Positions 4,402 to 59,450 of a stretch of 64,000 nt of DNA are shown in pieces (position 1 is the stretch's first letter; each line of letters opens with the position of its first letter). This DNA comes from Chitinophaga sp. LS1 (lineage in GTDB: Bacteria > Bacteroidota > Bacteroidia > Chitinophagales > Chitinophagaceae): the NCBI RefSeq assembly GCF_034274695.1, contig NZ_CP128362.1, positions 434,001 through 498,000 of the forward strand, read 5' to 3'. The notes beneath the pieces are model-generated. The model had not been told where the DNA came from and did no database searches. It was given only the letters and a program-made list of their open reading frames with translations. The position numbers were made by a program, and so were the translations under genes.

Positions 4402-5859
4402 TCAGGATGCAACTGCAGAAATTCTGATAGCTATAGCATGCTGAAAACCTTTTTTCTGTAACGCAGCCGGGATTGTGATAGTGGTAATATCACCAGTTAC
4501 TTTCCAGCTCAGTTTTTCTTTCGCACCCAGCATTTCCAGCTTAGCACCTTTAGCAGGTGTCAGCCCCTTAAATGCAATGTTAGCCGGCAATTGCTCATCT
4601 TTATCCAGCAGGTATATCGCATATACACTGCCGTCTTTCTTCCGTGTAAAACATACTTTTCCATCTTTATACGGAGCAACAGATTTTGTGGCATAGATCG
4701 CATCACCATTTACATGCATCCATGCACCAATAGCAGTCATGGTTGTATACGCCTCGTCGTGCAACTGACCATCAGGACCCGGACCTACGTTCAGCAGGTA
4801 GTTACCACCTTTTGCCACGATGTCGATCAGGTGATGGATCAGTTCATTCACAGATTTGTAATGATCGTTCGGTACATAAGACCAGCTATTCGCCATGGTC
4901 ATACAGGTTTCCCATGGGTAATCCAGTGGTTTGTCAGGAATCTGCTGCTCTGGAGTACGATAGTTTTCGTTCGGACCATGTACCTCGCGGTCTACCACGA
5001 TCAGACCTGGCTGGTGTGTACGCGCCATGGCCGCAATACCATCCATGTCAATATCTTCATCCTGCTTGATCATTTTTTCACCGGTTTCAGCGGCGGTAAT
5101 GTCTGCAGCAGATTTTTTATCCTGTTTACGAGGACGTACCCAGCCACCATCTAACCACAGGATGTCAATTTTACCATAACCTGTCATTAGTTCTTCGATC
5201 TGGTTGTAGGTATACTGACGAAAAGCTTTCCAGCGATCAGGATATTTACTTACATCATAGTTTACATGCCTGTCTTTGGGTGGAAAGTAAGACCACCAAT
5301 AGTCCTGGCTATGCCAGTCAGGTTTGGAGAAGTAAGCACCTGCGTGCAAACCTTCTTTGCGGAAAGCTTCAAATACTTCTTTAGCAATGTTTGAACGGGG
5401 ATCTTTTCCGAATGCAAAGTTTGGATTGGATACTTTGTAATCAGTTTGTTTGGTATCAAACATACAGAAACCGTCGTGGTGCTTGGTAGTGAATACTACG
5501 TATTTCATACCTGCATCCTTTGCCGCTTTTGCCCATTTGGAAGGGTCGAACTTTGTAGGATTGAAAGTTTTACCCAGTTCTTCATACTTTTTCACATAGT
5601 CATAGTATGGAATACCGTATGGCTGACGTTGTGTCCATCCTTCATCTTCAGGACAGATGCTCCATGATTCTACAATACCCATTTGAGAATATGCCCCCCA
5701 ATGGATCAGCATACCGAATTTCCAGTCAGACCACTCTTCCAGGTTCTGTTGAACGGCTTTGTCTGTAGGTGGGATGTAGGGTGGAATTTGTTGGTGCTGC
5801 GCACTGGCTGAACCTATTAGCAATAGTGCGCTGCTTAAAAGCATACAAAGTTTTCGCAT
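4402..5859 (-). CDS. Alpha-L-fucosidase, GH29, secreted
   Basis: A 485-residue glycoside hydrolase with a Sec signal peptide (MRKLCMLLSSALLLIGSASA). The GH29 barrel shows WKFGMLIHWGAYS near the N-terminus, KYVVFTTKHHDGFCMFD, and the nucleophile region IDILWLDGGW with the catalytic Asp. The family removes terminal alpha-L-fucose from glycans. It starts only 2 bases after the stop of the GH2 beta-mannosidase, so both are surely co-transcribed, and a strong terminator follows. The protein is probably periplasmic or exported. Confidence 0.92.
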   Translation of the reverse strand: MRKLCMLLSSALLLIGSASAQHQQIPPYIPPTDKAVQQNLEEWSDWKFGMLIHWGAYSQMGIVESWSICPEDEGWTQRQPYGIPYYDYVKKYEELGKTFNPTKFDPSKWAKAAKDAGMKYVVFTTKHHDGFCMFDTKQTDYKVSNPNFAFGKDPRSNIAKEVFEAFRKEGLHAGAYFSKPDWHSQDYWWSYFPPKDRHVNYDVSKYPDRWKAFRQYTYNQIEELMTGYGKIDILWLDGGWVRPRKQDKKSAADITAAETGEKMIKQDEDIDMDGIAAMARTHQPGLIVVDREVHGPNENYRTPEQQIPDKPLDYPWETCMTMANSWSYVPNDHYKSVNELIHHLIDIVAKGGNYLLNVGPGPDGQLHDEAYTTMTAIGAWMHVNGDAIYATKSVAPYKDGKVCFTRKKDGSVYAIYLLDKDEQLPANIAFKGLTPAKGAKLEMLGAKEKLSWKVTGDITTITIPAALQKKGFQHAIAIRISAVAS

Positions 5860-5861
5860 GT

Positions 5862-8396
5862 TTAATTTTTAAATGTATCTCTGAGACTTATAACCTTTAT
5901 CTTATCCATTAGCGGTGCCGCTAATTTGTTGAGCCATATATCCTTCGTCTGGCCAGGCAGCAGATCAAAATAGTTATCGCTAAAAGTCAATTCCGGATCT
6001 TCACATTGCAGGTATACGTTCTTTGCAAGTTGAGTCGCCGTTACCAAAATATGGAGAGCCAGGGTATCATCATTCGCCACTTCTATTTTCAATCCAGGGT
6101 CCGGTAATATTAGATCTTTGGTTTTAGCAAAATAATATACATTCTCACTTAATAACTTATCACTATTTACCACTTTCGTATAGAATATTACCTTTCCGGT
6201 GTCTGCCGGCTGCAAAATAGTGTTCAATGGTATTTCGTGAACAATGGTACTTTTGTTACCTTCTATATTAATATTCACTGATTTTTCCCACAAAATCTTG
6301 CCGCCAAAGTCCATTAGTTTCATTTCGAGTTTTGCCTTGCGGTCTTTATTTTCATCAGAAATAAGATAAGTCTTTAAGTTACCATTTTTTACGATATTGC
6401 TCACTAACAATGGTTCATATGCCTTCTTTACAAAGAACTGCATGGCTTTCCAGCGACCGTAATAATCAATACCTGACCAGGATGGGCCAGGCCAACAATC
6501 ATCTAACTGCCAGTACAGCGTACCCATACAAAAAGGCATGGCCCTACGATGCGCTTCGATACCCATTTTCATACCTTCTGCCTGCAATACATGATTCACA
6601 TACAGGAAGAATTCAAAATTTGTAGGTTCTTTATAATAATGTAAGAGATAAGTCCTGATAGCAGCATTCCCCCTGTTGAAACTCTTTTGGTGTGATAACA
6701 TCACAGGAGAATATATATCTCTATCCTGCGCTGATGTAAACCGCTTTACTGTCTGGATATCAGGGAAAGACTGAAAACCATATTCACTCATAAACCTTGG
6801 AATATGTTCTTCAAAAGCTTCGAACCATTCCATACCATGCCACACCCCCCAATAGTGATTATCACCAATAGTGAAATCTTCTTTGGTACCCCAGTTGCTA
6901 ATAGGTGATGATGGGAAATAAAATCTGTCTGCATCATATTGCTGAATGATTTTTGGTAGCTGCACTTTGAAGAGTTCATCATACCCAGCTCTCATATCCG
7001 CCCATTGTTTTTCTGTATAGCCATACCCTTCTTTCCAACCCCAATGATCAATCGCAACACCTATCTCATTATTACCACACCACAGTGCAAGTGAAGGATG
7101 ATTACGTAGACGGGTAATGTTAGCACCCAGTTCCGCTTCCACATTTTTCAGAATTTTTGATGTAGGATAAGTTGAACAGGCAAAGAGTAAATCCTGCCAT
7201 ACCAGTATACCATATCTATCCGCGAAATCATAGAAACGGTCATCTTCATAAATACCACCACCCCACACACGAACCATGTTGAAATTGGACACCTTCATAT
7301 CATTGAACAACTTTGCATACCTTTCTGTAGTTACACGCGGCAGGAAGTTATCCAACGGAATGTAATCAGCACCTTTCATAAATACAGGCCGTCCATTTAC
7401 TTTTACATAAAAGCTCACACCCATACTGTCAGGTTTATTCACCACTTCTATCGTGCGCAGACCGATGTTCAATGCACGTGATTGTAACAATTCATTTCCA
7501 TCGTAGAGAGATACCTTCACTTTATATAAGTACGGATCGCCTAAGCCGTTAGGCCACCAGCGACGTGGGTTTGAGATAGTAAAAGAGGCAGATAAAGTAT
7601 CTCCTTCGAATGGTTTAGTAATGGTGGAAAATAGCTTGTCAGGGCTTTCTATTTTAATAGTGTACTTCTTTTTTGCGGCTGTCTGGAATTTCAGTTTCGC
7701 CAGTATCACCGCTGATTTATCAGTCAGTTGTTTTTGCTTAAGATATACATCTTCAATACTTACTTTATCTCCATATTCCAAATACACAGGCCGCCATATA
7801 CCTGATGTCACTAATCTTGGCCCCCAGTCCCATCCATAATGATAAGGTGCTTTTCTCGCATACACACTCAAAGGAATATCACTCGCATCATTACCTGCAG
7901 GATAGATCACATCATCATGTAAGAAGTTGTTCATATCATGCCTGATAGGACTGTAGAAAACAAGACGCAAAGTATTGTCCCCTTCTTTTACCTTTTGCTT
8001 AATTTGTGCCTTAAGTGGTACAAACATATTGGAACTGGTAGCAATAGAATCGCCATTGATGAAGATAGCTGCATAAGTATCCAGACCTTTAAAATCCAGC
8101 GCAAGCCAGTCGTGCTGTAACATCTCTTTTGTTACAGTAAAAGAGGTTTGGTATTGCCAGTTTTTCTTATCCACCCATTGTACCGACTTTTCATTCATAC
8201 CAACGTAGGGATCAGGAATGAGATGGTGGGCCATCAGGTCAGTGTGGACGGTGCCTGGCACGGTAGCTGAGCGCCATGCAGTGTCGTCAGTGCTTGAGAA
8301 TTTCCAGTCTTTGTTTAGTTCAATTTGCTGGAAAGACTGTGCTCCTGCTGTGGCCGTAAGCAGGCACAGGCAGGCAATATTCACATAACGTCTCAT
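5862..8396 (-). CDS. Beta-mannosidase, GH2, secreted
   Basis: An 844-residue GH2 enzyme with a signal peptide (MRRYVNIACLCLLTATAGA). It has the N-terminal sugar-binding fold, an immunoglobulin-like domain, then the catalytic barrel with the acid/base motif LWCGNNEIG and the nucleophile motif FMSEYGFQSFP. The alternating Trp-rich stretches (ARKAPYHYGWDWGP, GTLYWQLDDCWPG) are typical of beta-mannosidases rather than beta-galactosidases. With the adjacent fucosidase it suggests trimming of fucosylated, mannose-containing glycans such as N-glycan cores. No SusC/D pair is nearby. Confidence 0.9.
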   Translation of the reverse strand: MRRYVNIACLCLLTATAGAQSFQQIELNKDWKFSSTDDTAWRSATVPGTVHTDLMAHHLIPDPYVGMNEKSVQWVDKKNWQYQTSFTVTKEMLQHDWLALDFKGLDTYAAIFINGDSIATSSNMFVPLKAQIKQKVKEGDNTLRLVFYSPIRHDMNNFLHDDVIYPAGNDASDIPLSVYARKAPYHYGWDWGPRLVTSGIWRPVYLEYGDKVSIEDVYLKQKQLTDKSAVILAKLKFQTAAKKKYTIKIESPDKLFSTITKPFEGDTLSASFTISNPRRWWPNGLGDPYLYKVKVSLYDGNELLQSRALNIGLRTIEVVNKPDSMGVSFYVKVNGRPVFMKGADYIPLDNFLPRVTTERYAKLFNDMKVSNFNMVRVWGGGIYEDDRFYDFADRYGILVWQDLLFACSTYPTSKILKNVEAELGANITRLRNHPSLALWCGNNEIGVAIDHWGWKEGYGYTEKQWADMRAGYDELFKVQLPKIIQQYDADRFYFPSSPISNWGTKEDFTIGDNHYWGVWHGMEWFEAFEEHIPRFMSEYGFQSFPDIQTVKRFTSAQDRDIYSPVMLSHQKSFNRGNAAIRTYLLHYYKEPTNFEFFLYVNHVLQAEGMKMGIEAHRRAMPFCMGTLYWQLDDCWPGPSWSGIDYYGRWKAMQFFVKKAYEPLLVSNIVKNGNLKTYLISDENKDRKAKLEMKLMDFGGKILWEKSVNINIEGNKSTIVHEIPLNTILQPADTGKVIFYTKVVNSDKLLSENVYYFAKTKDLILPDPGLKIEVANDDTLALHILVTATQLAKNVYLQCEDPELTFSDNYFDLLPGQTKDIWLNKLAAPLMDKIKVISLRDTFKN

Positions 8397-8428
8397 TATT
8401 GAAATTGATTATTTTTTTTGCATTCAAA

Positions 8429-8522
8429 CCTGCTGCCGCAGGTCTTTTCATTGTCCAAAGAAATGCCCATTAGGCATCAGCCCAAAATGAGATTTCTTCC
8501 TTGCTGCCGCAGGCCTTTTCAA
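8429..8522. repeat. Two copies of a TGCTGCCGCAGG repeat
   Basis: CCTGCTGCCGCAGG followed by TCTTTTCA occurs at 8429-8450, and a near copy (TTGCTGCCGCAGG then CCTTTTCA) at 8501-8521, about 72 bases apart. Each core can fold on itself. They lie between the beta-mannosidase and a small plus-strand gene and look like a short REP-like element or local duplication. Confidence 0.45.
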
Positions 8523-47730: not shown

Positions 47731-48782
47731 ATGATTGTTAAAACCTATGGCAGTGCGCTGCAAAGCGTCAGTGCCATCTCCATTGTTATAGAAGTGAATG
47801 TCTCACCCAAAGGCACCCGTTTCTCCATCGTAGGTTTACCAGGCAACTCAGTCAAAGAAAGTGAAGACCGTATAGAATCTGCCATCCAAAATATCGGGTG
47901 CATATTTCCCCGCTTCAGAACCATCGTAAACATGGCGCCTGCGAACATTCGCAAAGAAGGTGCTGCATATGATCTACCAATAGCCATTGGTTTATTAGCC
48001 GCCTCAGAACAAATCAAAACTGATAACTTAAATCACTATACTCTCATGGGAGAGCTCTCTTTAGATGGAACCTTACTTCCAATAAAAGGAGCCCTCCCCA
48101 TAGCCGTACAAGCAAAAAAAGACGGTTTCAAAGGAATCATACTCCCCCTTCAAAACGCCAAAGAAGCATCAATGGTAGACGGCATCAAAGTTTACGGCGC
48201 TGCCGATCTGAAAGAAGTCATTGACTTCTACAACAACCCCAAAACCTTACGTCCTACCAATTCCGATGTCGTCAACATCTTCTCCCAACAAAACTCCAAC
48301 GATCCCGACTTCAATGAAGTTAAAGGCCAATACATGGTCAAACGCGGCCTCGAAATAGCCGCCGCCGGTGGACACAACGTTTTACTCATCGGCCCTCCCG
48401 GTGCTGGCAAAACAATGCTGGCAAAACGCTTTCCTGGCATCCTCCCACCCATGACGCTTCCCGAAGCTTTAGAAACCACCAAAATCTATTCAGTAGCTGG
48501 CAAACTCGATTGCTCTTTAATCACCAAACGTCCCTTCCGCTCACCACATCACACGATCAGCGATACCGCCTTAGTAGGTGGGGGTATCACACCGCAACCA
48601 GGTGAAATATCCTTAGCCCACAATGGCGTATTATTCCTCGATGAATTACCTGAATTCAAACGCGCGGTTTTAGAAGTAATGCGTCAACCCATAGAAGAAA
48701 GAAAAGTCACCATTTCAAGAGCCTCCTATACTGCCGACTTCCCTGCCGGTTTCATGCTCATTGCGAGTATGAATCCATGTGA
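47731..48782 (+). pseudogene. comM: ComM/YifB AAA+ ATPase, truncated by element insertion
   Basis: About 350 residues of a ComM/YifB protein whose normal length is about 510. The N-terminal Lon-like domain ([38 protein letters not shown]) is intact, as are Walker [31 protein letters not shown] and [17 protein letters not shown]. The match stops after MLIASMNPC; family members continue with PCG, here replaced by [14 protein letters not shown] and a stop at 48825. The rest of the gene should lie beyond the element's other end, outside the window. ComM is a branch-migration helicase for natural transformation. Confidence 0.88.
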
Positions 48783-50269
48783 TTGTGTTGCCTTTTTCCG
48801 CTTTTATCAAAAAAAGAGTGCTTAGGTAAGTATGCCAATTTAACATAAATATCTTCCTCTCCTACCACTATTTCATCTGTAATTGCTTCAACGATAGTAC
48901 GTTTTTCATGCAATTCAAGGTCCGGCCAACGACTGTAAAGATCCTGTACATCTGAAAGTACTGCGTTAGACGAGGCTAAGTGAATGGTTAGGGCATCAAT
49001 TTCTCCTTGAAGTTCCGCAGATTGCTTTTGCAATTCCTCAGTGCGCTCATTTTGGGGTTTATAGAAACATGCAAAGTCAGATTGGGAAATCTCCTTCCGT
49101 AACCTCAATTCCAACATTTCATGTGTTCTTTCTCTAAGTTCTTTTATTTTCGATTCCGTAACCGCCAATAAATTAGTCTTTTCATTTATCAAAGATTCAG
49201 TTTGCCGCTTATACGACTCTACTTCCAAATTGGTAAACAAAAATGTTCTTAGCTGTTCTTCGTAAACAAGGTCTATATCTTTTACCGTAATCTTATTGCC
49301 GCAATTTTTGCAATGAAAGGTATCTACACCATGATAGACATACATTTTATTACCACATTTGCATTGCAGTATGCCTGCTAACAAAAACTTACTTTGCCTA
49401 CCTAATTTGTCCCGCCGTTTATACTGCTTATCAAGTATAGCGTTACACTCATTCCATAACTCTTCACTAATAAGGTTCGGACATTCAGTTAATACCCATT
49501 CATCACTAGGTTTCAGATCCCAATGCTTTTTATTCCCTCTACTTTTAGTATAATTGGCTCGGCGGATACCTTTCGCCATCGGGTCTCTTAGCAACCGATC
49601 TATTGTGGTATCAGAAAATTTATCCCCCTTCCTTGTGCGATAACCCAAATCGTTTAATTCCTTCGCTGTAGCTTTTTTTCTTTTGGTTCGCAGAAATATA
49701 TCATACATCAATTTTCTAACCGGTGCCTCATTCTCATCTATGACTAGCTGCTTTTTCAGTGGATCATCCCCCCAAGAATAACCATATGGCGCAGCTCCAC
49801 CTAACGGCTTACCCAATTGTGCACGTATAGGTACAGACGCAGCGACACGGCTGGCAATTTCTTCCCTCTCCCATTGTGCCATGGCTGCAATTATTGTATA
49901 AAAGAGCCTACCAGCCGGGGTACTAGTATCAATAGATTCCTGTAAGGAAACAAGGTCTGCCTTATGCTCTTGAAAATAGTCAGCAAATGATAATAGTTCT
50001 TTAGTATTGCGAGCTAAGCGTGCCAATTTGGAAAAAACCAGTGCCTTAATTCTGCCCTCTTTAACATCATTAAGCATACGTTGGGTTTCTGGCTGTTCCA
50101 TTACCGATTTTCCGGAAACGGCCTCTAAGTTATACACAGTAACTACATTCCAACCTTTAAGTTTGCAATACATTCGCGCTCGTTCCTCATGATGCTCTGG
50201 AGCATCGCCCTTCGCCTGATCTTCAGTGCTGACACGTATCCAAATACCTATTGGCTTTTCATCATTCAT
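48758..50269 (-). CDS. Large serine recombinase (integrase)
   Basis: A 503-residue recombinase. The N-terminal resolvase domain has the catalytic Ser in [16 protein letters not shown], then [16 protein letters not shown] and [23 protein letters not shown] recombinase domain ([27 protein letters not shown] region), a zinc ribbon ([20 protein letters not shown]) and a long coiled coil (about 360-450) follow. It would insert the element into comM. Its last six or seven codons (MDSYSQ, stop) lie in comM sequence, so the gene end is part of the attachment site. Confidence 0.93.
48774..48790. other. Left attachment junction of the mobile element
   Basis: The codons for Met-Asn-Pro-Cys of comM (ATGAATCCATGT, ending 48780) are the last recognisable target sequence; from GATTGTGTTGCC the reading departs from the family. 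The junction is placed here from protein similarity only, with an uncertainty of several bases. Confidence 0.6.
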
Positions 50270-50321: not shown

Positions 50322-51002
50322 TCAATACCTTAGCCTTCCTTTAGATAACACACGCTTAATTATGTTGCTTTTCATTTCCGCTTCAACTTCTGATACTTTT
50401 TTATATTCAATAACAACTTTCCTGCCTTTAAAAAAATACTCCTTACGGAAGTTATTGCAATTAATACGGTCTAAGTAATCTGCAAAATCGCTTAATGCTA
50501 TTACAGATATTTTTTTTAAAATGTCTCCTAAAAGAAAGCCAATCTTATCATCATGACCTTTACCAAGTGAACAAACCACTATAAAATCAAAATCTGATTG
50601 AAGGCATAGTTTAATAATATTGGGTTCGCATGATAAATGACCACAATTAAACATAAAGCAGGCTATAGATAAATTGTCCTTTTCCAGGACAATATCAACT
50701 CCTCCATCATTTCCTAATCGTTCATTAAATTTAACAGTAAAACCTATTCTATGGGCAATTTTAACAATCTGTCGTTTTAACCCCTCACGCTCTCTAACTT
50801 CAGCATCTTTAATAATGCGTAACGCCTCAGCAGAGTCTGATAATATTGGGAAATTCTTCCTTGAATGTACTATTAACTGTTTTTCTTCATCATTGGGTTC
50901 ACTTGTATTGCCAGTATCTGCCAACTTTTGATTAACGAGTGCCACCAACCTTTTAACTATTTCATTTTCATACTCACTTGGAAATAAGTCCTTCTCCGCC
51001 AT
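50322..51002 (-). CDS. Unknown element protein with degenerate nuclease-like domain
   Basis: A 226-residue protein, not recognised by name. The N-terminal part is helical and charged (SEYENEIVKRLVALVNQKL). The C-terminal part, RIGFTVKFNERLGNDGGVDIVLEKDNLSIACFM as separate phrases, recalls restriction-endonuclease-like domains of mobile elements in which VDVVLE is followed by an acidic residue and NIQKCL. Here NIIKLCLQSDFDFIVVCS is present but the acidic residue is not, so it may be inactive. It lies directly upstream of the recombinase gene, 52 bases away on the same strand. Confidence 0.6.
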   Translation of the reverse strand: MAEKDLFPSEYENEIVKRLVALVNQKLADTGNTSEPNDEEKQLIVHSRKNFPILSDSAEALRIIKDAEVREREGLKRQIVKIAHRIGFTVKFNERLGNDGGVDIVLEKDNLSIACFMFNCGHLSCEPNIIKLCLQSDFDFIVVCSLGKGHDDKIGFLLGDILKKISVIALSDFADYLDRINCNNFRKEYFFKGRKVVIEYKKVSEVEAEMKSNIIKRVLSKGRLRY

Positions 51003-53439: not shown

Positions 53440-53640
53440 ATGGATATAAAATTTTTCGCATGTGATAAGTTAAATCTGCACGACTTAAATAAGTTGTATG
53501 CCAGTTTAACCGCTTTCAATCTTTTAGAAGATAGCGACGAGGTCGCTGACTTAATTGCTGCAACGAAAAAAAAGCAGGAGGATACTTTAAAGGACAAAGA
53601 AATCGACCAGGAAACTTTGAAGATGGTCGTACAATTTTAG
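53440..53640 (+). CDS. Small acidic/charged protein, unknown
   Basis: A 66-residue protein from ATG 53440 (MDIKFFACDKLNLHDLNKLY); the frame opens at TTG 53431. The second half is strongly charged and helical (ADLIAATKKKQEDTLKDKEI). It ends 16 bases before the GTG start of the peptidase-like gene, so both are likely one operon. No family recognised; it may be a regulator, inhibitor or substrate of the peptidase. Confidence 0.55.
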   Translation: MDIKFFACDKLNLHDLNKLYASLTAFNLLEDSDEVADLIAATKKKQEDTLKDKEIDQETLKMVVQF

Positions 53641-53656
53641 TTAAACCTCGTAATTA

Positions 53657-55189
53657 GTGGAAGTTTACTCATTTAGTGATATCAATCTAGTTGCAACTCT
53701 ATCGAACTCTTACACTCCGGAAAATGTAATCCGCCAAAAAAGACATTTTACCTATCTATATAATTATTTAGGAGAGCAGGGATTGAATGCCAAAACTATT
53801 GTAGTTGAAGATGCCTATATAAGTAAGGATTACCTTCATGATTATGCATCCTATTACTCATTATGCTTTGAAAATTATCCTAAGTTCTGTAAAAGGGTTC
53901 ATTTTTTCTCATCAGACTTCACACTAGAGCAATTCAAGGCAGCTGTACTACAAAATGATAACAGTTCCAATCATGCCCTATGGGATGGTTATCTTGGATT
54001 TGTAGTTGTAAAGCCGATTCCGGTTACTGTTATTGGATATACTATATTGAAGACATATAATTCCGGACAAGATCTTGAAGGAAGATATTTTTGGGGTACG
54101 AAGGAATACAAAGTACACCTTTATGGGAAGTTGTTGCGAGTCCGATCTCTGGCCTTTCAAGAACAGGATCATGTTCTTGCTGCATGTGCAACGACGTCTA
54201 TTTGGACTATGTTAAACAAGGTTATTGAGGGAAGTCACCCTTTACTCCGTTCTCCGAGTCAGATAACTAAGGATGCCGATAAGACAGCACAAAATGGGAG
54301 TAGGCTATTTCCCAACAAAGGACTAAGTGTCCAGCAGATTTGTCAATCTATTCTGAATTCTGGGTTAGTCTCGGATGTTCAGGAAGGAAAACTAAAGGAC
54401 GAGTATACTAATATCCGCCACTTTGGCAACTCTGAACTCAAGCAATTGCTACGCGCTTATTCTGGAATAGGAATTCCTATCATTTTAATTGCTCATGTTC
54501 CAAGCAATGGTTGGCGGATACATGCATTAACTGTATCAGGCTTTAAACAGTTCATTCCTGAAAGCACCGAAACTCAACCAGGTGATATAAGCTTATTGGC
54601 TGACCATATTGAGAAAATTTATGTTCATGATGATCAATGGGGGCCTTTTGTGCGAACTGAGTTCCTGCCAGATGACGGTATTAGTACGCCATGGACAGAT
54701 AATGATAAATTGAATTCTAAAACCTATATAGGTACAGCAATCATCTCTGTATATCCAAAGATTCGTATTGCCTATCAGGATATAAAGGCTATAGTAATCG
54801 GATTGAATGTTTTGCTAAGTCGTTTCCATAAGGAAGCGAAAGTTAGTGTGACGTGGGATATAAGAATTCTCCTGAGTGAGGATCTTAAAAAAGAAGTGCG
54901 AACATCAGGTCTACCAGAGGATGAAAAACTATCTCTATTAACCACAAGCTTACCTAGATATATATGGGTAGCGAGCTGTACTCTTGGAAAAAACCGGCTT
55001 GTAGATTATGTTTTTGACGCGACAAACATCGCCGACGCTATGATCGGAATAAAAACGGTGTGCTATTTCCCTGAACTGAAGAAAGTACTTTTGCTGTGTC
55101 TTACGCAAAGCCGCCAAAAGCTTCCTGAAGTATTCAATCATCCGCTTGCGGAAAGATATGCGGACTTTTTTATTGAAAGTCTGCAATAA
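53657..55189 (+). CDS. Papain/C39-like cysteine peptidase, predicted
   Basis: A 510-residue protein starting at GTG 53657. The region SLAFQEQDHVLAACATTSIW holds a candidate catalytic Cys177 in a papain/C39-like context; WRIHALTVSGF gives His289 and the following KIYVHDDQWGPF supplies Asp325 or Asp326. The N-terminal 160 residues (YLGFVVVKPIPVTVIGYT) are shared by an uncharacterised bacterial family. The gene converges on the ubiquitin-like operon, so deconjugation or processing of the ubiquitin-like protein is a fair guess; no substrate is shown. A bidirectional terminator lies between the two. Confidence 0.65.
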   Translation: MEVYSFSDINLVATLSNSYTPENVIRQKRHFTYLYNYLGEQGLNAKTIVVEDAYISKDYLHDYASYYSLCFENYPKFCKRVHFFSSDFTLEQFKAAVLQNDNSSNHALWDGYLGFVVVKPIPVTVIGYTILKTYNSGQDLEGRYFWGTKEYKVHLYGKLLRVRSLAFQEQDHVLAACATTSIWTMLNKVIEGSHPLLRSPSQITKDADKTAQNGSRLFPNKGLSVQQICQSILNSGLVSDVQEGKLKDEYTNIRHFGNSELKQLLRAYSGIGIPIILIAHVPSNGWRIHALTVSGFKQFIPESTETQPGDISLLADHIEKIYVHDDQWGPFVRTEFLPDDGISTPWTDNDKLNSKTYIGTAIISVYPKIRIAYQDIKAIVIGLNVLLSRFHKEAKVSVTWDIRILLSEDLKKEVRTSGLPEDEKLSLLTTSLPRYIWVASCTLGKNRLVDYVFDATNIADAMIGIKTVCYFPELKKVLLLCLTQSRQKLPEVFNHPLAERYADFFIESLQ

Positions 55190-55192
55190 AAA

Positions 55193-55217
55193 GGTGTGTT
55201 CCTTTACGGAACACACC
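55193..55217. terminator. Bidirectional terminator between convergent operons
   Basis: GGTGTGTTCC-tttac-GGAACACACC is a perfect 10-bp stem in the 34 bases between the peptidase-like gene (+) and the DUF2188 gene (-), with A-rich flanks. Confidence 0.88.
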
Positions 55218-55223
55218 GAAAAT

Positions 55224-55448
55224 TTAGCCTTTTGGAGGGAACGGATCATTTCCATAGCTATTAGAGCCACGGATCTGACCATTCGGGCGGTGGATAACCA
55301 CCTCGGTTCTTTGGTTAATTGCTATTTCTTGGGCCCTGTCGATAGCCTGCTGCTGAGTAGAAACAATTGCAGTTGCTCTACTATTGCCCGCACCTACCAC
55401 TGCCCAGTCATCCCCCCTGGGAACAACGTGTTGATTTTTTTTAGACAT
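55224..55448 (-). CDS. DUF2188 domain protein
   Basis: A 74-residue protein with the DUF2188 pattern: HVVPRGDDWAVVGAGNSRAT, then STQQQAIDRAQEIAINQRTE and VVIHRPNGQIRGSNSYGNDP, ending FPPKG. DUF2188 proteins are small, widespread and of unknown function. It is the last gene of the ubiquitin-like operon, 45 bases after the JAB-E1 gene. A role as a helper or substrate cannot be judged. Confidence 0.82.
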   Translation of the reverse strand: MSKKNQHVVPRGDDWAVVGAGNSRATAIVSTQQQAIDRAQEIAINQRTEVVIHRPNGQIRGSNSYGNDPFPPKG

Positions 55449-55492
55449 GTTTAAATGTTTTATAGTTAAAAATAGATAGCTAATTCGTAATA

Positions 55493-56872
55493 CTAATCCC
55501 GCCCTAATTCGTCTATGCGTAAGAGCGGTTTAACATCCCCTATACCTACGTACTTATCAAAAAATTCACAACTCTTGTCTTTGTAATTTACTGTTGTAGT
55601 TTCTGAGGTTGCAAAAATTATCCTGATAGCATCAATCTCTGAATTAGGGATAATGCGGTAAGGATGAATACGAGCAAGGAAATCTTCAACAGCAGTGGCA
55701 GCAGCTTTCATATTGACAGTGATGACAGCAGGCGAGGACTCGCCTACGGCAGCAAGGTATTGGTTCCTGGCATAAGCTTCTGCGTTTTGTCTTTTGGTTG
55801 TCTCAGCCAGCAGCTTACCGACACTGTAAGCTCCGCGACTAAGGAGGCTACTTCCGCCAGGCTGGATATAATGCACAGTACCATAGATGCCTGAAATACC
55901 CCCAACTCCATCCGCGTCAAGGCGGACCCCCAAATCGAAATATGGAATAAGATAGCAACTTGAAATCAGGTTAAGAATGTGCCTTCCTTCTGCACCATCA
56001 ACACAACCAAACAGGATGTCACAGTCTGCGAGGTCTTTCACGACATTAGCTTCGCTAATATGGGAAGGGTAAACGGTTATTGTGGTTTTAAACCCAACTT
56101 CCTCTATCTCACGTTTCATAACTGATGTCTTCAAGACTTTCATTTCTGCATCCGAATGAGTAGAACCAATTATTCTGTTGAGGTTCACAAAGTCGATAGT
56201 GTCCGGATCGACCAGTACAAAAGAACCAACGCCATATCTTTTAAGTTGTTCGATGACAATACTTCCCGTACCTGAACAACCGACTACTCCTATCTTCATT
56301 CGGCTCAACATCAGCATAGTTCCTTTGCCAAAAGCCTGTAAATTGCGGGCCTGTAACGCCTCGTTCAATCCTTCCACTGGCTGATAATGCCACTGATAAA
56401 TATTAGCACCTGCAACGGATATTTGTTGAATACGCTGTTCGTTTAAATCTCTGTCAAAGGCGCGGCCGAAGATCCTGCCATCAGGCAACATGATACAACT
56501 GACGTGCGGAAGGTTTGTATCCAGCCATTGATGGATTCCGGAAAACAACTCTCTGTCTGACTTTGTATCAATATGCGAAAAAAATTCCCCGCCTCCAGGA
56601 TGGCAATGAATCTTTAATATCGCATAATTATGCTTTTCAGCGACTTCCAGTAACGGTTTTAACATGTCCGTTGGCCAGTGAACATAATCCTCTTCACGTT
56701 GAAAGCATTTGTCATGTGGTATTGGGTGGATTTCTTTTAGACAAAGTGTATGTCCTTCAGAGGTAAAACTTCTTGAACACAGCCCTAATGCTACGGCTTC
56801 TTTGTTATCACCTGGATACAGGTGATTAACGAGGGCAGCGTGCTGCCCTCCTGTTAATCTTAACTTTATCAT
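55493..56872 (-). CDS. JAB metallopeptidase-E1 (ThiF) fusion
   Basis: A 459-residue fusion. Residues about 1-150 form a JAB/MPN peptidase with an intact metal motif: His89-x-His91, Ser99, Asp102 (IHCHPGGGEFFSHIDTK) and an upstream Glu25. Residues about 190-430 are an E1-like adenylating domain: GVVGCSGTGSIVIEQL, LVDPDTIDFVNLNRI, KTSVMKREI and LFGCVDGAEGRH. Where relatives commonly have paired Cys after PGG, this protein reads PGGSSLLSRGAYS (Ser341, 342, 345). It would activate the ubiquitin-like domains of the upstream gene and also cleave conjugates. It starts 4 bases after that gene. Confidence 0.88.
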   Translation of the reverse strand: MIKLRLTGGQHAALVNHLYPGDNKEAVALGLCSRSFTSEGHTLCLKEIHPIPHDKCFQREEDYVHWPTDMLKPLLEVAEKHNYAILKIHCHPGGGEFFSHIDTKSDRELFSGIHQWLDTNLPHVSCIMLPDGRIFGRAFDRDLNEQRIQQISVAGANIYQWHYQPVEGLNEALQARNLQAFGKGTMLMLSRMKIGVVGCSGTGSIVIEQLKRYGVGSFVLVDPDTIDFVNLNRIIGSTHSDAEMKVLKTSVMKREIEEVGFKTTITVYPSHISEANVVKDLADCDILFGCVDGAEGRHILNLISSCYLIPYFDLGVRLDADGVGGISGIYGTVHYIQPGGSSLLSRGAYSVGKLLAETTKRQNAEAYARNQYLAAVGESSPAVITVNMKAAATAVEDFLARIHPYRIIPNSEIDAIRIIFATSETTTVNYKDKSCEFFDKYVGIGDVKPLLRIDELGRD

Positions 56873-56876
56873 CTGG

Positions 56877-58019
56877 TCAGCGTTTTAATTCGTTACGTAA
56901 CCAATTTTCAACGAGGATCAGGTGCGTTGCTATATTATCAACGCCTGGTAGCCATTCGTTTGGCTTTCTATGCCTCGACCATCTTTGGAATTGCAGTCCT
57001 TTGATGATCTCGGCAGAAATAGCATGAATCTGCCTTCCATCCTTGCGAACAAGTTGCGGATAAAAATAAGCCATGTCGATTTCGGTGGCGGGATATAATG
57101 GGGAAATTTTCAGCGCTACGGTCACCGTAGGTGCATTATACCCCTCAGGAACAGGAAAGTCATTGATTAATATGCATTTCTCACCATTATTAATCAAGCA
57201 CTCCCATGGGAGCGCCTGATTATCTAAAAAGGTAACATCCTCTTCTGGAAGTATGAAGGGCTGGTCGTTACCACGTCCATCCTCCTGCTTTTTAGGCAGA
57301 ATAAGGAAGCGTACCAGACACTGTTCAGTTAGGTCTACCTCTTCATTATATTCAACCTGCTTTTTTGTCGAATTACTGTAGGCTTTATAGATTTCGAACT
57401 CCTGGTATTCGCTGCGGCCTGTTTTAAGAATCAATTCTTTACCAGTAACGAACGGAGTTGTAAACGTATAGGAGCCTCCATGAATTGGCACTATGAAACT
57501 GTGAGTCGGTGGAACTGGCAGGCATTTCATACCGTATTCTTCGATATTCACCTGTTCCAACCATGGTTTTGTGATAAACTCAAGGCCACTGCAAACCATC
57601 TTGATTTCGGTCTCTGGTGTATATGCATATACAATGTCTGGCGCCTTCGGAATTACCTGAATCAGATATTCCTTATCAGGATTTTTCCCACCCAATTTCA
57701 GGATTTCAACCGGTGTCAGTGTCCTACTGTCGGTAGTTTCCAACTCTTTATTTAATGTGTAGCTAAAGACAGTAGCTTCTTTTACGATTAAGCGCTCCTT
57801 GCCTTCATAGCTAAGATCTATCATATCACCAGCCAAAATTGGATCAAAGTCGTTATGCTCCTTTACTATATATAAGGAATAGCATGACACCGGGAGAAAT
57901 CCACCAGCAGTCAGGAACTCTTCACGTGACACGATTGCTTTATCAAACACTAACTCTTTATCGTTTGCGAATGCCTTATACTTTTTAGGCATTGCGGATT
58001 TCAAGGATTGTTCGTCCAT
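56877..58019 (-). CDS. Triple ubiquitin-like (multi-ubiquitin) and E2 fusion
   Basis: A 380-residue protein and first gene of the operon. Three ubiquitin-like domains of the Multi_ubiq type span about 12-80, 84-152 and 172-240; the third shows the pattern HSFIVPIHGGSYTF, VTGKELILKTG and EEVDLTEQCLVRF. Residues about 258-380 match the prokaryotic E2 family E fold (INDFPVPEGYNAPTVTVAL, DMAYFYPQLVRKDGRQIHA, FQRWSRHRKPNEWLPGVD). The stretch where an E2 active-site Cys would lie (about 325-336) has none; the last Cys is 282. Fusion of modifier and E2 in one chain suggests self-attachment or polymers. Confidence 0.85.
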   Translation of the reverse strand: MDEQSLKSAMPKKYKAFANDKELVFDKAIVSREEFLTAGGFLPVSCYSLYIVKEHNDFDPILAGDMIDLSYEGKERLIVKEATVFSYTLNKELETTDSRTLTPVEILKLGGKNPDKEYLIQVIPKAPDIVYAYTPETEIKMVCSGLEFITKPWLEQVNIEEYGMKCLPVPPTHSFIVPIHGGSYTFTTPFVTGKELILKTGRSEYQEFEIYKAYSNSTKKQVEYNEEVDLTEQCLVRFLILPKKQEDGRGNDQPFILPEEDVTFLDNQALPWECLINNGEKCILINDFPVPEGYNAPTVTVALKISPLYPATEIDMAYFYPQLVRKDGRQIHAISAEIIKGLQFQRWSRHRKPNEWLPGVDNIATHLILVENWLRNELKR

Positions 58020-58143
58020 TATTATAATAATTTAAAATAAAATAAATAAAACCAGGGTGCAATCAGCACCAATGCCGCTAACAGCGTTTTTGATGTGTCT
58101 TAATAACTGACGGCTTTACTTCTTATTTTTTATTATTACTGAA

Positions 58144-58299
58144 TTCAAGGGGAAATCCGCTGTGAGGGCTTTGTAGATTGGAGAAAAACAGTATCTTTGT
58201 GTTCTCAATACCAAGATACACTGAGAGAAAAGCCCAACTTCTAAGTTGTCTTTCTCCAATCTTATTAAAGCCAAGCGGAATTTCCTCTTGGTTTTTTTT
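58144..58299 (+). ncRNA. Candidate small RNA inside a nested inverted repeat
   Basis: TTTG (58170-58173), an 18-base gap and TATCTTTG (58192-58199) resemble a promoter. About 75 bases on, CCAAG (58271-58275) pairs with CTTGG (58287-58291), followed by eight T. The left flank (CAAGGGGAAATCCGCT and GATTGGAGAAA, 58146-58187) is an imperfect inverted copy of the right part (TTTCTCCAATC and AAGCGGAATTTCCTCTTGG, 58251-58291). The RNA would be about 95 bases. It lies between the ubiquitin-like operon and the XRE gene. It could instead be a small inverted-repeat element. Confidence 0.5.
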
Positions 58300-58438
58300 A
58301 TGTCCTATCGGGTCGATCTGACTCAACAATACAAAAGTATACCAACCACTTTACACTTCCAAAAATATTTACAGATTTATTTCAACATTTTTATAAACAG
58401 GAATAAAAATCAGATAATGTAAAATATTACTAACATAA

Positions 58439-58470
58439 TTTGCTTTTTAGTTTAATTGGTCGTAATTTTG
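58439..58470 (+). promoter_or_regulatory. Promoter of the XRE-ImmA operon
   Basis: TTTG (58439-58442), a 20-base spacer and TAATTTTG (58463-58470) fit the Bacteroidota TTTG-N19/20-TANNTTTG pattern. The start codon is 80 bases on. Confidence 0.6.
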
Positions 58471-58549
58471 CAATACATTCATAAAATGAGTTTAACCCTA
58501 AGTAATAAAATCCAATTTCCGTAATGTTTAATCACTAAATCATGAACTC

Positions 58550-58921
58550 ATGACACCCCTTGATTCAAATGGCCTTTACACGCAGTTAGGTCAGCGCATA
58601 AGAAACGCACGGGAAAAAGTCGGTATGAGTCAGGAAGTTTTAGCCGAACAGCTAAGTTTAACAAGAGCGTCAATTGTCAATATCGAAAACGGCAAGCAGC
58701 GTCCCATGCTTCATACCCTCCTTTCTATCTGCGATATTCTAAAAACAAATCTGAAAGTACTGTTACCGGAGTATGTTTCTGAGAATGAAGAGTCTGAGAT
58801 GGCACTTGTCGCAGCAGCTGCCCCACCAGTAGTTGATACTATTATTACACAAAACGACGAAGCAGTAGACGAGGATACCAAAGATGCGATTCTGAAATTC
58901 GTTGCACACCTAAAAAAATAA
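58550..58921 (+). CDS. XRE-family HTH regulator
   Basis: A 123-residue regulator with an N-terminal helix-turn-helix: LGQRIRNAREKVGMSQEVLAE and then LSLTRASIVNIENGKQRPML. The C-terminal half is flexible and acidic (SENEESEMALVAAAAPPV). It is followed by the ImmA-type gene after 4 bases, the classic repressor and antirepressor-protease pair of mobile elements. It probably binds the spacer shared with the ubiquitin-like operon, by inference. Confidence 0.9.
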   Translation: MTPLDSNGLYTQLGQRIRNAREKVGMSQEVLAEQLSLTRASIVNIENGKQRPMLHTLLSICDILKTNLKVLLPEYVSENEESEMALVAAAAPPVVDTIITQNDEAVDEDTKDAILKFVAHLKK

Positions 58922-58925
58922 TAAG

Positions 58926-59450
58926 ATGACAAACGCTGCTATCAATTCAAAAGCGACTGAAATCATCTTACAATTTGGAAAGATGGAAGCTCCTATCAGG
59001 GTTGATGATATTGCCAGAGCGATGGGACTGAAAGTTGTTGCTTTTCCCCTCGAGGGTGACGTGTCAGGTCTGTTATTAATAGAAGCAGACGGCGCTACTA
59101 TCGGTTATAACCAGAATGAAGCGAGAGTCAGAAGGCGTTATACAGTAGCACATGAGCTTGGACATTATTGCCTTGGGCATACCCAGGAAGGTACTCCGAG
59201 CGTTTTTGTCGATAAGGGGTACCGTGTCTATTTTCGGAGGCCAGGGCAAGACGAGCCAAGTGCTGCAAGAAGGGAACGCGAGGCTAATTATTTCGCAGCT
59301 TGTCTTTTAATGCCTGAACAGCTTTTGGTGCCTGAAGTAGATAAATTGGAATTCGATCCGGGCAACGAAGATGCTATCAAACATCTTGCAAAAATGTTTG
59401 ATGTAAGCGCCACTGCTATGAGTTATAGAATTCAAAATTTGTACGCTTAA
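58926..59450 (+). CDS. ImmA/IrrE-family metallopeptidase
   Basis: A 174-residue zinc peptidase with the motif AHELGHYCLGH (HExxH) and a later Glu in REREANYFAACLLMP. N-terminal helices (KATEIILQFGKMEAPIRVDD) precede it. ImmA/IrrE proteins cleave a partner XRE repressor under stress, releasing an element's genes. Its partner here would be the protein of the preceding gene. It may act as the switch for excision or for the ubiquitin-like operon. Confidence 0.9.
   Translation: MTNAAINSKATEIILQFGKMEAPIRVDDIARAMGLKVVAFPLEGDVSGLLLIEADGATIGYNQNEARVRRRYTVAHELGHYCLGHTQEGTPSVFVDKGYRVYFRRPGQDEPSAARREREANYFAACLLMPEQLLVPEVDKLEFDPGNEDAIKHLAKMFDVSATAMSYRIQNLYA

Follow-up and report, generated by a model that had tools for sequence, protein, structure and literature searches.

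The DNA analysed here (the window) is a 64-kb stretch, genome positions 434,001-498,000, of the 8.67 Mb single-contig genome of Chitinophaga sp. LS1, and it carries a ubiquitin-like (UBL) conjugation operon with a peptidase module on one side and a regulator pair on the other. The operon lies on the minus strand. It consists of a UBL-E2 fusion named BubAB below (56877..58019; Prok-E2_E with E 5e-34 and Multi_ubiq with E 5e-9), a JAB-E1 fusion of 459 aa corresponding to BubCD (55493..56872; ThiF with E 3.6e-26) and a DUF2188 protein (55224..55448; Pfam: PF09954, E 1.7e-22; PADLOC PDC-S16). Converging on it from the plus strand are a 66 aa protein ending in ..LKMVVQF (53440..53640), which we call SMALL, and directly behind it a papain/C39-like cysteine peptidase of 510 aa (53657..55189), which we call PEP. 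A terminator-like hairpin of 10 pairs (55193..55217) stands between the convergent units PEP and DUF2188. On the other side, on the plus strand, follow a CapH-like XRE repressor (58550..58921; HTH_3 1e-12; PADLOC HTH_VI 6.5e-13 and capH 3.8e-11) and a CapP-like ImmA/IrrE metallopeptidase (58926..59450; Peptidase_M78, Pfam: PF06114, 5e-18; PADLOC capP 7e-33, the best of 16). The places and order of all these genes, first proposed in a sequence-only reading of this DNA, were confirmed by open reading frame (ORF) positions and Pfam matches, and the shared control region additionally holds a candidate small RNA (sRNA) gene that was absent from that reading.

PEP has the papain order of residues and the papain fold around a papain/C39 core, and the Gln-Cys-His-Asp residues (Q170, C177, H289 and D325 in the window protein) are invariant in all 68 PEP sequences longer than 430 aa. 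The window protein matched 0 Pfam families, the curated Peptidase_C39_2 profile included; this profile gave weak matches in 3 out of 51 PEP relatives, the best with E 6.5e-4. By fold, PEP is best matched by staphopain, on its own and in complex with staphostatin (PDB: 1cv8, 1pxv, 1y4h), where a papain-like peptidase also comes with a small partner; this likeness to the window pair is one of fold.

The description of PEP as a papain/C39-like peptidase with a small partner was also borne out by its relatives, as a small ORF precedes PEP in most loci and across phyla. In 62 out of 70 PEP loci an ATG-started ORF of 40-110 aa ends at most 65 bases before or 20 bases after the PEP start, compared with 104 out of 319 when the same rule is applied to the other ORFs of at least 300 aa in these loci (one further PEP locus of the 71, L096 in our numbering of loci, was untestable). 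Among the eight misses, a small ORF that narrowly fails the rule is present in L026, L030, L060 and L091. A C-terminal tail pattern (V-D-x-x-x-L-x-x-x-F-T-L and similar), written after inspection of the tails, fits 44 of the 62 SMALL ORFs and 1 of the 104 controls, and is stronger evidence for a partner than the ORF position. The 18 ORFs that miss the pattern include near fits (L037, L038, L076) as well as clear misfits (L081, L083, L084, L088, L095). Because the extreme C-terminus is the conserved part of a protein encoded directly before the peptidase, the sequences suggest that the SMALL tail may dock on PEP. A distant second PEP relative with 22% identity is encoded in the same genome (genome positions 1,807,121-1,808,263; L011, L025), with no SMALL-like ORF listed upstream.

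The co-occurrence of the peptidase with the UBL operon had been set beforehand as a test, and an E1 homologue together with a UBL gene was found within 6 kb in 18 out of the 71 PEP loci, of which 4 are convergent, 7 co-directional and 7 divergent. This is a lower bound, since the flank is shorter than 3 kb on one side in 23 of the 71 loci. When the neighbours were clustered by BLAST, the families present in more than 4 of the 71 loci were E1 (18), UBL (17), SMALL (17), DUF6527 (15), XRE (14) and ImmA (13), and the next commonest families outside the cassette reached 4 loci. In six loci of Pedobacter and Mucilaginibacter (L028, L029, L032-L035) the XRE-ImmA pair is divergent, followed by BubAB, BubCD, DUF6527, SMALL and PEP in one direction. 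The convergent layout of the window, which had been thought possibly new, is not unique, being also found in L026, L038, L044 and L129, while the suspected importance of the peptidase link is upheld.

PEP is also found beside other UBL-type genes. L036 and L091 have a ThiF-type gene without a multi-UBL gene next to PEP, a JAB-E1 gene is present in L106 with no UBL gene seen, and in L042 a BilD gene (E 6e-135) is accompanied by a weakly matching JAB and by genes for DUF7665 and DUF2604; BilD and other Bil-like genes there (positions 5691-8504) are divergent from SMALL-PEP. On plasmids, multiubiquitin and ThiF genes adjoin PEP in 2 of the 4 records with PEP (P. aeruginosa and Mesorhizobium). A JAB-E1 relative occurs in 193 of the 72,556 plasmid records, and in 127 of these the match covers 80% or more of JAB-E1. 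PEP was detected in 7 of 395 genomes and stands beside a JAB-E1 gene in two of these (genomes G000 and G278). The Prok-E2_E gene was detected in 9 of 395 phylum-level genomes (Bacteroidota) and 10 of 396 order-level genomes, together 17 distinct genomes. In two unrelated loci, proteins with caspase and DEAD-helicase matches are encoded beside PEP (L045:3083-6199 and L115:8669-11722).

The JAB-E1 protein aligns over its whole length with Citrobacter BubCD (residues 4-457, an alignment of 454 residues; PDB: 9ea4, E 3e-69), and the E2 part of BubAB (246-378) aligns with Citrobacter BubB (PDB: 9eav, E 1e-21), the QRWSRHR motif included. The core is therefore a Bub operon (type 6e, Iyer 2006) in which BubA and BubB are fused. 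The ThiF, Prok-E2_E and Multi_ubiq matches confirm the proposed UBL-conjugation core, although the core is not new, as the Citrobacter proteins are already in the PDB (9ea4, 9ea5, 9ea8, 9eae, 9eav). These share the fused JAB-E1, a BubB E2 with a YQRWSRHR-type motif and a BubA-type UBL; unlike them, BubA and BubB of the window are one protein with three UBLs. PEP and SMALL, DUF2188 and the sRNA candidate lie alongside the window operon. The similarity of the UBL parts to BubA and other multi-ubiquitin structures is weak (E 2e-4 to 0.06); the alignments cover a two-UBL stretch at residues 20-129 (E 0.03) and residues 177-246, and Pfam detects one UBL domain in the fusion. The claim of a triple UBL thus stands as far as the three repeats visible in the alignment of relatives; the scores are not strong.

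In the description of type 6e (PMC1779556), the polyUbl protein has one, two or three domains and in some cases carries a fused E2/RWD-like domain lacking Cys, a JAB is joined to the N-terminus of the E1, and a small CxxxC..HxxC protein is among the parts. The part of that description available to us lists no papain-like peptidase, SMALL, DUF2188 or RNA; the window has the first three and a candidate for the RNA. DUF6527 lies next to the E1 in its 15 PEP loci and is probably the metal-binding protein described in 2006; the family was called from a scan of one member. The DUF6527 gene that relatives keep is missing from the window and has DUF2188 in its place, whereas L129 has both. DUF2188 is a recurrent part of UBL-E1 loci, since it also adjoins UBL-E1 operons in L146 and L147 as well as in L129.

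The active sites of the core were compared in 23 BubCD-type proteins from the fetched loci and in 32 E2-domain matches, which were chosen without reference to the motif and include two duplicate contigs. The Prok-JAB match of JAB-E1 (8e-5, 22.9 bits) is below the Pfam family cut-off of 25; its JAMM residues E25, H89 and H91 are kept in all 23 proteins, and S99 and D102 in 22. The adenylation residues of the E1 are kept in 21-23 of the 23, and C290 is the sole invariant cysteine, with C284 kept in 15 and C435 in 13 proteins. In the E2, Ser348 takes the place of the active-site Cys and is kept in 32 out of 32 relatives, 8 residues before Trp356. Eukaryotic E2s have the same spacing between the catalytic Cys and a Trp. 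A serine-based oxyester route is reportedly described for the Bub pathway, and from the sequences the conservation of Ser348 and the spacing to Trp356 are compatible with such a route.

The fused proteins also point to a possible processing site. UBLs encoded by separate genes end in ..LDQTEG (L056, L127, L128) or ..DSTPG (L021), and in L017 and L132 the Gly is followed by a few residues that would have to be trimmed. A Gly after the third UBL (TEG, TDG, EDG or similar) is present in 16 out of 16 fused proteins where aligned. Here it is Gly248, internal at the UBL3-E2 junction, where homologues have the Gly at or near a free C-terminus. A cut after Gly248 would free a mature UBL and the E2, and the JAB would be the obvious candidate for it. 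Five multi-UBL operons (L037, L040, L041, L047, L117) have an E1 without a JAB match and UBLs ending in ..TDKS or ..TNKS rather than Gly.

The XRE-ImmA pair is adjacent to and, by gene order, divergent from the Bub operon, which is the CapH-CapP layout. CapW or CapH and CapP stand alongside 219 out of 544 Bub operons, and CapH-CapP is likewise a helix-turn-helix (HTH) repressor with an ImmA-type peptidase upstream of an immune operon, according to the sections of the 2026 EMBO Journal paper PMC13373217 at our disposal; the linkage to an ImmA switch, which had been thought possibly new, is thus already in the literature. As the window pair matches capP and, among other HTH families, capH in PADLOC, it is of the kind already reported beside Bub operons. 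It differs from CapH-CapP by the sRNA gene pattern between repressor and operon. Regulators of the CapH-CapP type are said to have been treated by Lau 2022.

This candidate sRNA gene (58170..58299, plus strand) lies between BubAB and XRE, is about 95 nt long and is divergent from the UBL gene. It begins with promoter-like TTTG (58170) and TATCTTTG (58192-58199), and the spacing TTTG-N18-TATCTTTG matches the Bacteroidota promoter consensus. The RNA is expected from about 58205, and a terminator (58270-58299) follows about 95 nt on. The stretch folds better than 200 out of 200 shuffles (z -5.0), and nine homologous stretches have z from -1.8 to -5.1. From promoter to terminator the pattern recurs at the same place and in the same orientation in 10 out of 36 loci (the window, L026, L028, L029, L032-L035, L038 and L044), with three chance matches elsewhere in L028, L041 and L133. 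In the alignment of the nine, 87.4% of the cells pair; shuffles give 78.4%, and none of the 500 reaches the observed value. Moreover, 7 of the 18 pairs are changed on both sides, which 18 of the 500 shuffles reach; five of these seven are in one internal hairpin.

A model of the pattern, R1, was run over 96 sources and found the right place in L129 (E 0.003), L041 (0.046) and L050 (0.5), none of which was in training. Over the 396 order-level genomes it gave nine matches, namely three training loci, three new places (G433 with E 1.7e-9, G733 with 2.5e-7 and G745 with 6e-7) and three weaker matches in or beside unrelated genes. Each of the three new places precedes another multi-UBL and E1 operon by about 167-175 nt, in divergent orientation, and the genomes concerned gave no match in the search for Prok-E2_E. 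Sites of the candidate sRNA gene are L129:8843-8981, L145:5671-5806, L146:6314-6443 and L147:6396-6524. No Rfam family matched the candidate above cut-off. We speak of a conserved gene pattern and a candidate RNA, not a proven one.

The reading we hold with moderate confidence is that of a stress-controlled Bub conjugation system on an integrative conjugative element, linked to an effector-type peptidase module. What is observed are the gene identities, the intact active-site residues, the repeated linkage and the gene pattern of the sRNA. On this reading, the XRE protein would keep the divergent BubAB-BubCD-DUF2188 operon repressed and would be cut by ImmA once the latter is activated, possibly by single-stranded DNA, by analogy with CapH-CapP. 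The JAB would then cut BubAB after Gly248 and free the UBL C-terminus, the E1 would adenylate the UBL, and the E2 would pass it via Ser348, rather than via a cysteine, to target proteins. PEP would be a cytosolic peptidase held by SMALL through its conserved C-terminal tail, in an autonomous two-gene module, and Bub conjugation or deconjugation may license it, much as the cyclase is primed by conjugation in type II CBASS (cyclic oligonucleotide-based antiphage signalling system). The divergent sRNA may regulate the UBL module or form part of it. All steps of catalysis and regulation are inferred, as are the effector function of PEP and a role in defence.

BilABCD and type II CBASS use the same UBL-type E1, E2 and JAB machinery in anti-phage systems. 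Unlike the window, where they are fused in one ORF, BilABCD has JAB (BilC) and E1 (BilD) as separate genes, and the PEP relative of L042 sits beside BilD and other Bil-like genes. Type II CBASS needs a cyclase, and none was seen in the window cassette; no CD-NTase was found among the nine window proteins scanned with PADLOC or the ten scanned with Pfam.

The main rivals to an effector role of PEP are mere island-sharing and a dedicated deconjugase. That PEP and SMALL form an independent defence module sharing islands or mobile elements with Bub operons is unlikely, although it is the best of the alternatives. It would fit the defence genes that PADLOC detected in eight chosen neighbour proteins: type I restriction-modification (two in L049), PglX/type IIG methylase (L074), PDC-S06 (L069), caspase-helicase (L045, L115), an AAA ATPase (L116) and BilD (L042). 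However, the neighbour families above 4 of the 71 loci are limited to E1, UBL, SMALL, DUF6527, XRE and ImmA, even though Prok-E2_E is rare in Bacteroidota, and next to the three orientations there is the co-directional series of six loci. Somewhat more doubtful is that PEP is a dedicated deconjugase, as it is present where the JAB is intact, as in the window, and in 53 of its 71 loci no E1 and UBL cassette lies within 6 kb; its best fold matches are staphopain and C39 and not deubiquitinases, although a shared fold shows no function. Least probable of the three is that SMALL is a substrate or peptide precursor processed by PEP (a signalling pair or one like those of ribosomally synthesised and post-translationally modified peptides), since the conserved part of SMALL is the extreme C-terminus and not a double-glycine leader junction, and no exporter gene recurs in more than 4 of the 71 loci, as no other neighbour family does.

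Several results weigh against the effector-linked Bub system that we prefer. For 53 of the 71 PEP loci, no E1 and UBL cassette was seen at a distance of up to 6 kb (an upper bound given the short flanks), so that a dependence of PEP on Bub is unproven, and PEP adjoins the Prok-E2_E gene in only 4 of the 17 distinct genomes (G000, G544, G641, G705). PEP and SMALL are therefore autonomous, Bub can do without them, and the idea of a dedicated UBL part did not hold. In the window the two units are convergent with a terminator between, so PEP and SMALL need not be co-regulated with the operon. The linked loci are not all independent either, because the label 'linked' is clustered on the PEP tree, where it changes 11 times compared with 19.8 times in shuffles (0 of 500 as low), at least 8 changes being forced by starred branches. 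This tree was made by a quick method from 73 rows, 23 of them labelled linked (L129 from a Bub-side search, the remaining ones from PEP searches), and left out L025 (remote), L055 (a 4.2 kb contig) and L089, L090, L095 and L096 (partial). In the E2, His350 is kept in 27 of the 32 relatives and replaced by Pro or Arg in the other five; the E2-like proteins of L045, L050, L133, L134 and L118 keep the Ser with Pro or Arg at this position. For the sRNA, conservation is highest in the columns of the promoter and the terminator, and the two outer stems reach into promoter DNA and may thus be operator DNA rather than RNA structure. A wider model, R2, retained the terminator stem only. One of its weak matches lies on the wrong strand (L044, E 0.007), and 345 class-level genomes yielded no further strong case. 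Furthermore, Bub operons are not shown to protect against phage, as far as the available text of PMC13373217 goes.

The cassette is cargo of an integrative conjugative element of about 68 kb, in line with the claim that it lies inside an integrated element, because a split comM gene, a serine integrase and conjugation genes in the DNA between were found. The 5' part of comM (47731..48779, plus strand) is interrupted at the MNPC codons, and the 3' half of the gene is found at a distance of about 68 kb, near genome position 551,000. A large serine integrase (48758..50269, minus strand; Pfam: PF00239, 3e-32 and Pfam: PF07508, 8e-19) lies at the left end of the element inside comM. Both comM junctions have CATG in common; the crossover point is approximate. 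Ten proteins of the comM-flanked DNA were scanned, and those of L012-L013 include matches to a relaxase, a coupling protein, TraG, TraJ and TraM. Insertion into comM is also known from other bacteria. Further cargo of the element includes a weak Mrr-like nuclease match (window positions 50322-51002) and a group II intron reverse transcriptase (L013:3571-5271).

In the portions of PMC13373217 we could draw on, neither the mode of action of Bub pathways nor the threat they counter is settled. With the core and the regulator known, what goes beyond them, and is worth following, is the peptidase and SMALL family, its repeated linkage to several types of UBL conjugation and the sRNA gene pattern. 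The PEP pair accompanies Bub, DUF6791-ThiF and, in one case, Bil-type operons across several phyla, and in six loci it runs in the direction of the operon, which makes it a concrete candidate for a missing effector or a second protease. The fused BubAB with its junction Gly offers a simple assay for precursor processing, and a regulatory role of the sRNA gene pattern conserved at the promoter can be put to the test. A more far-reaching and tentative idea, which we consider improbable as it stands, is that UBL systems have two unrecognised standard parts: an ancient cross-phylum PEP and SMALL effector gated by UBL conjugation, and a divergent structured sRNA of the UBL module. If true, RNA would take part in the control or sensing of bacterial ubiquitin-like immunity.

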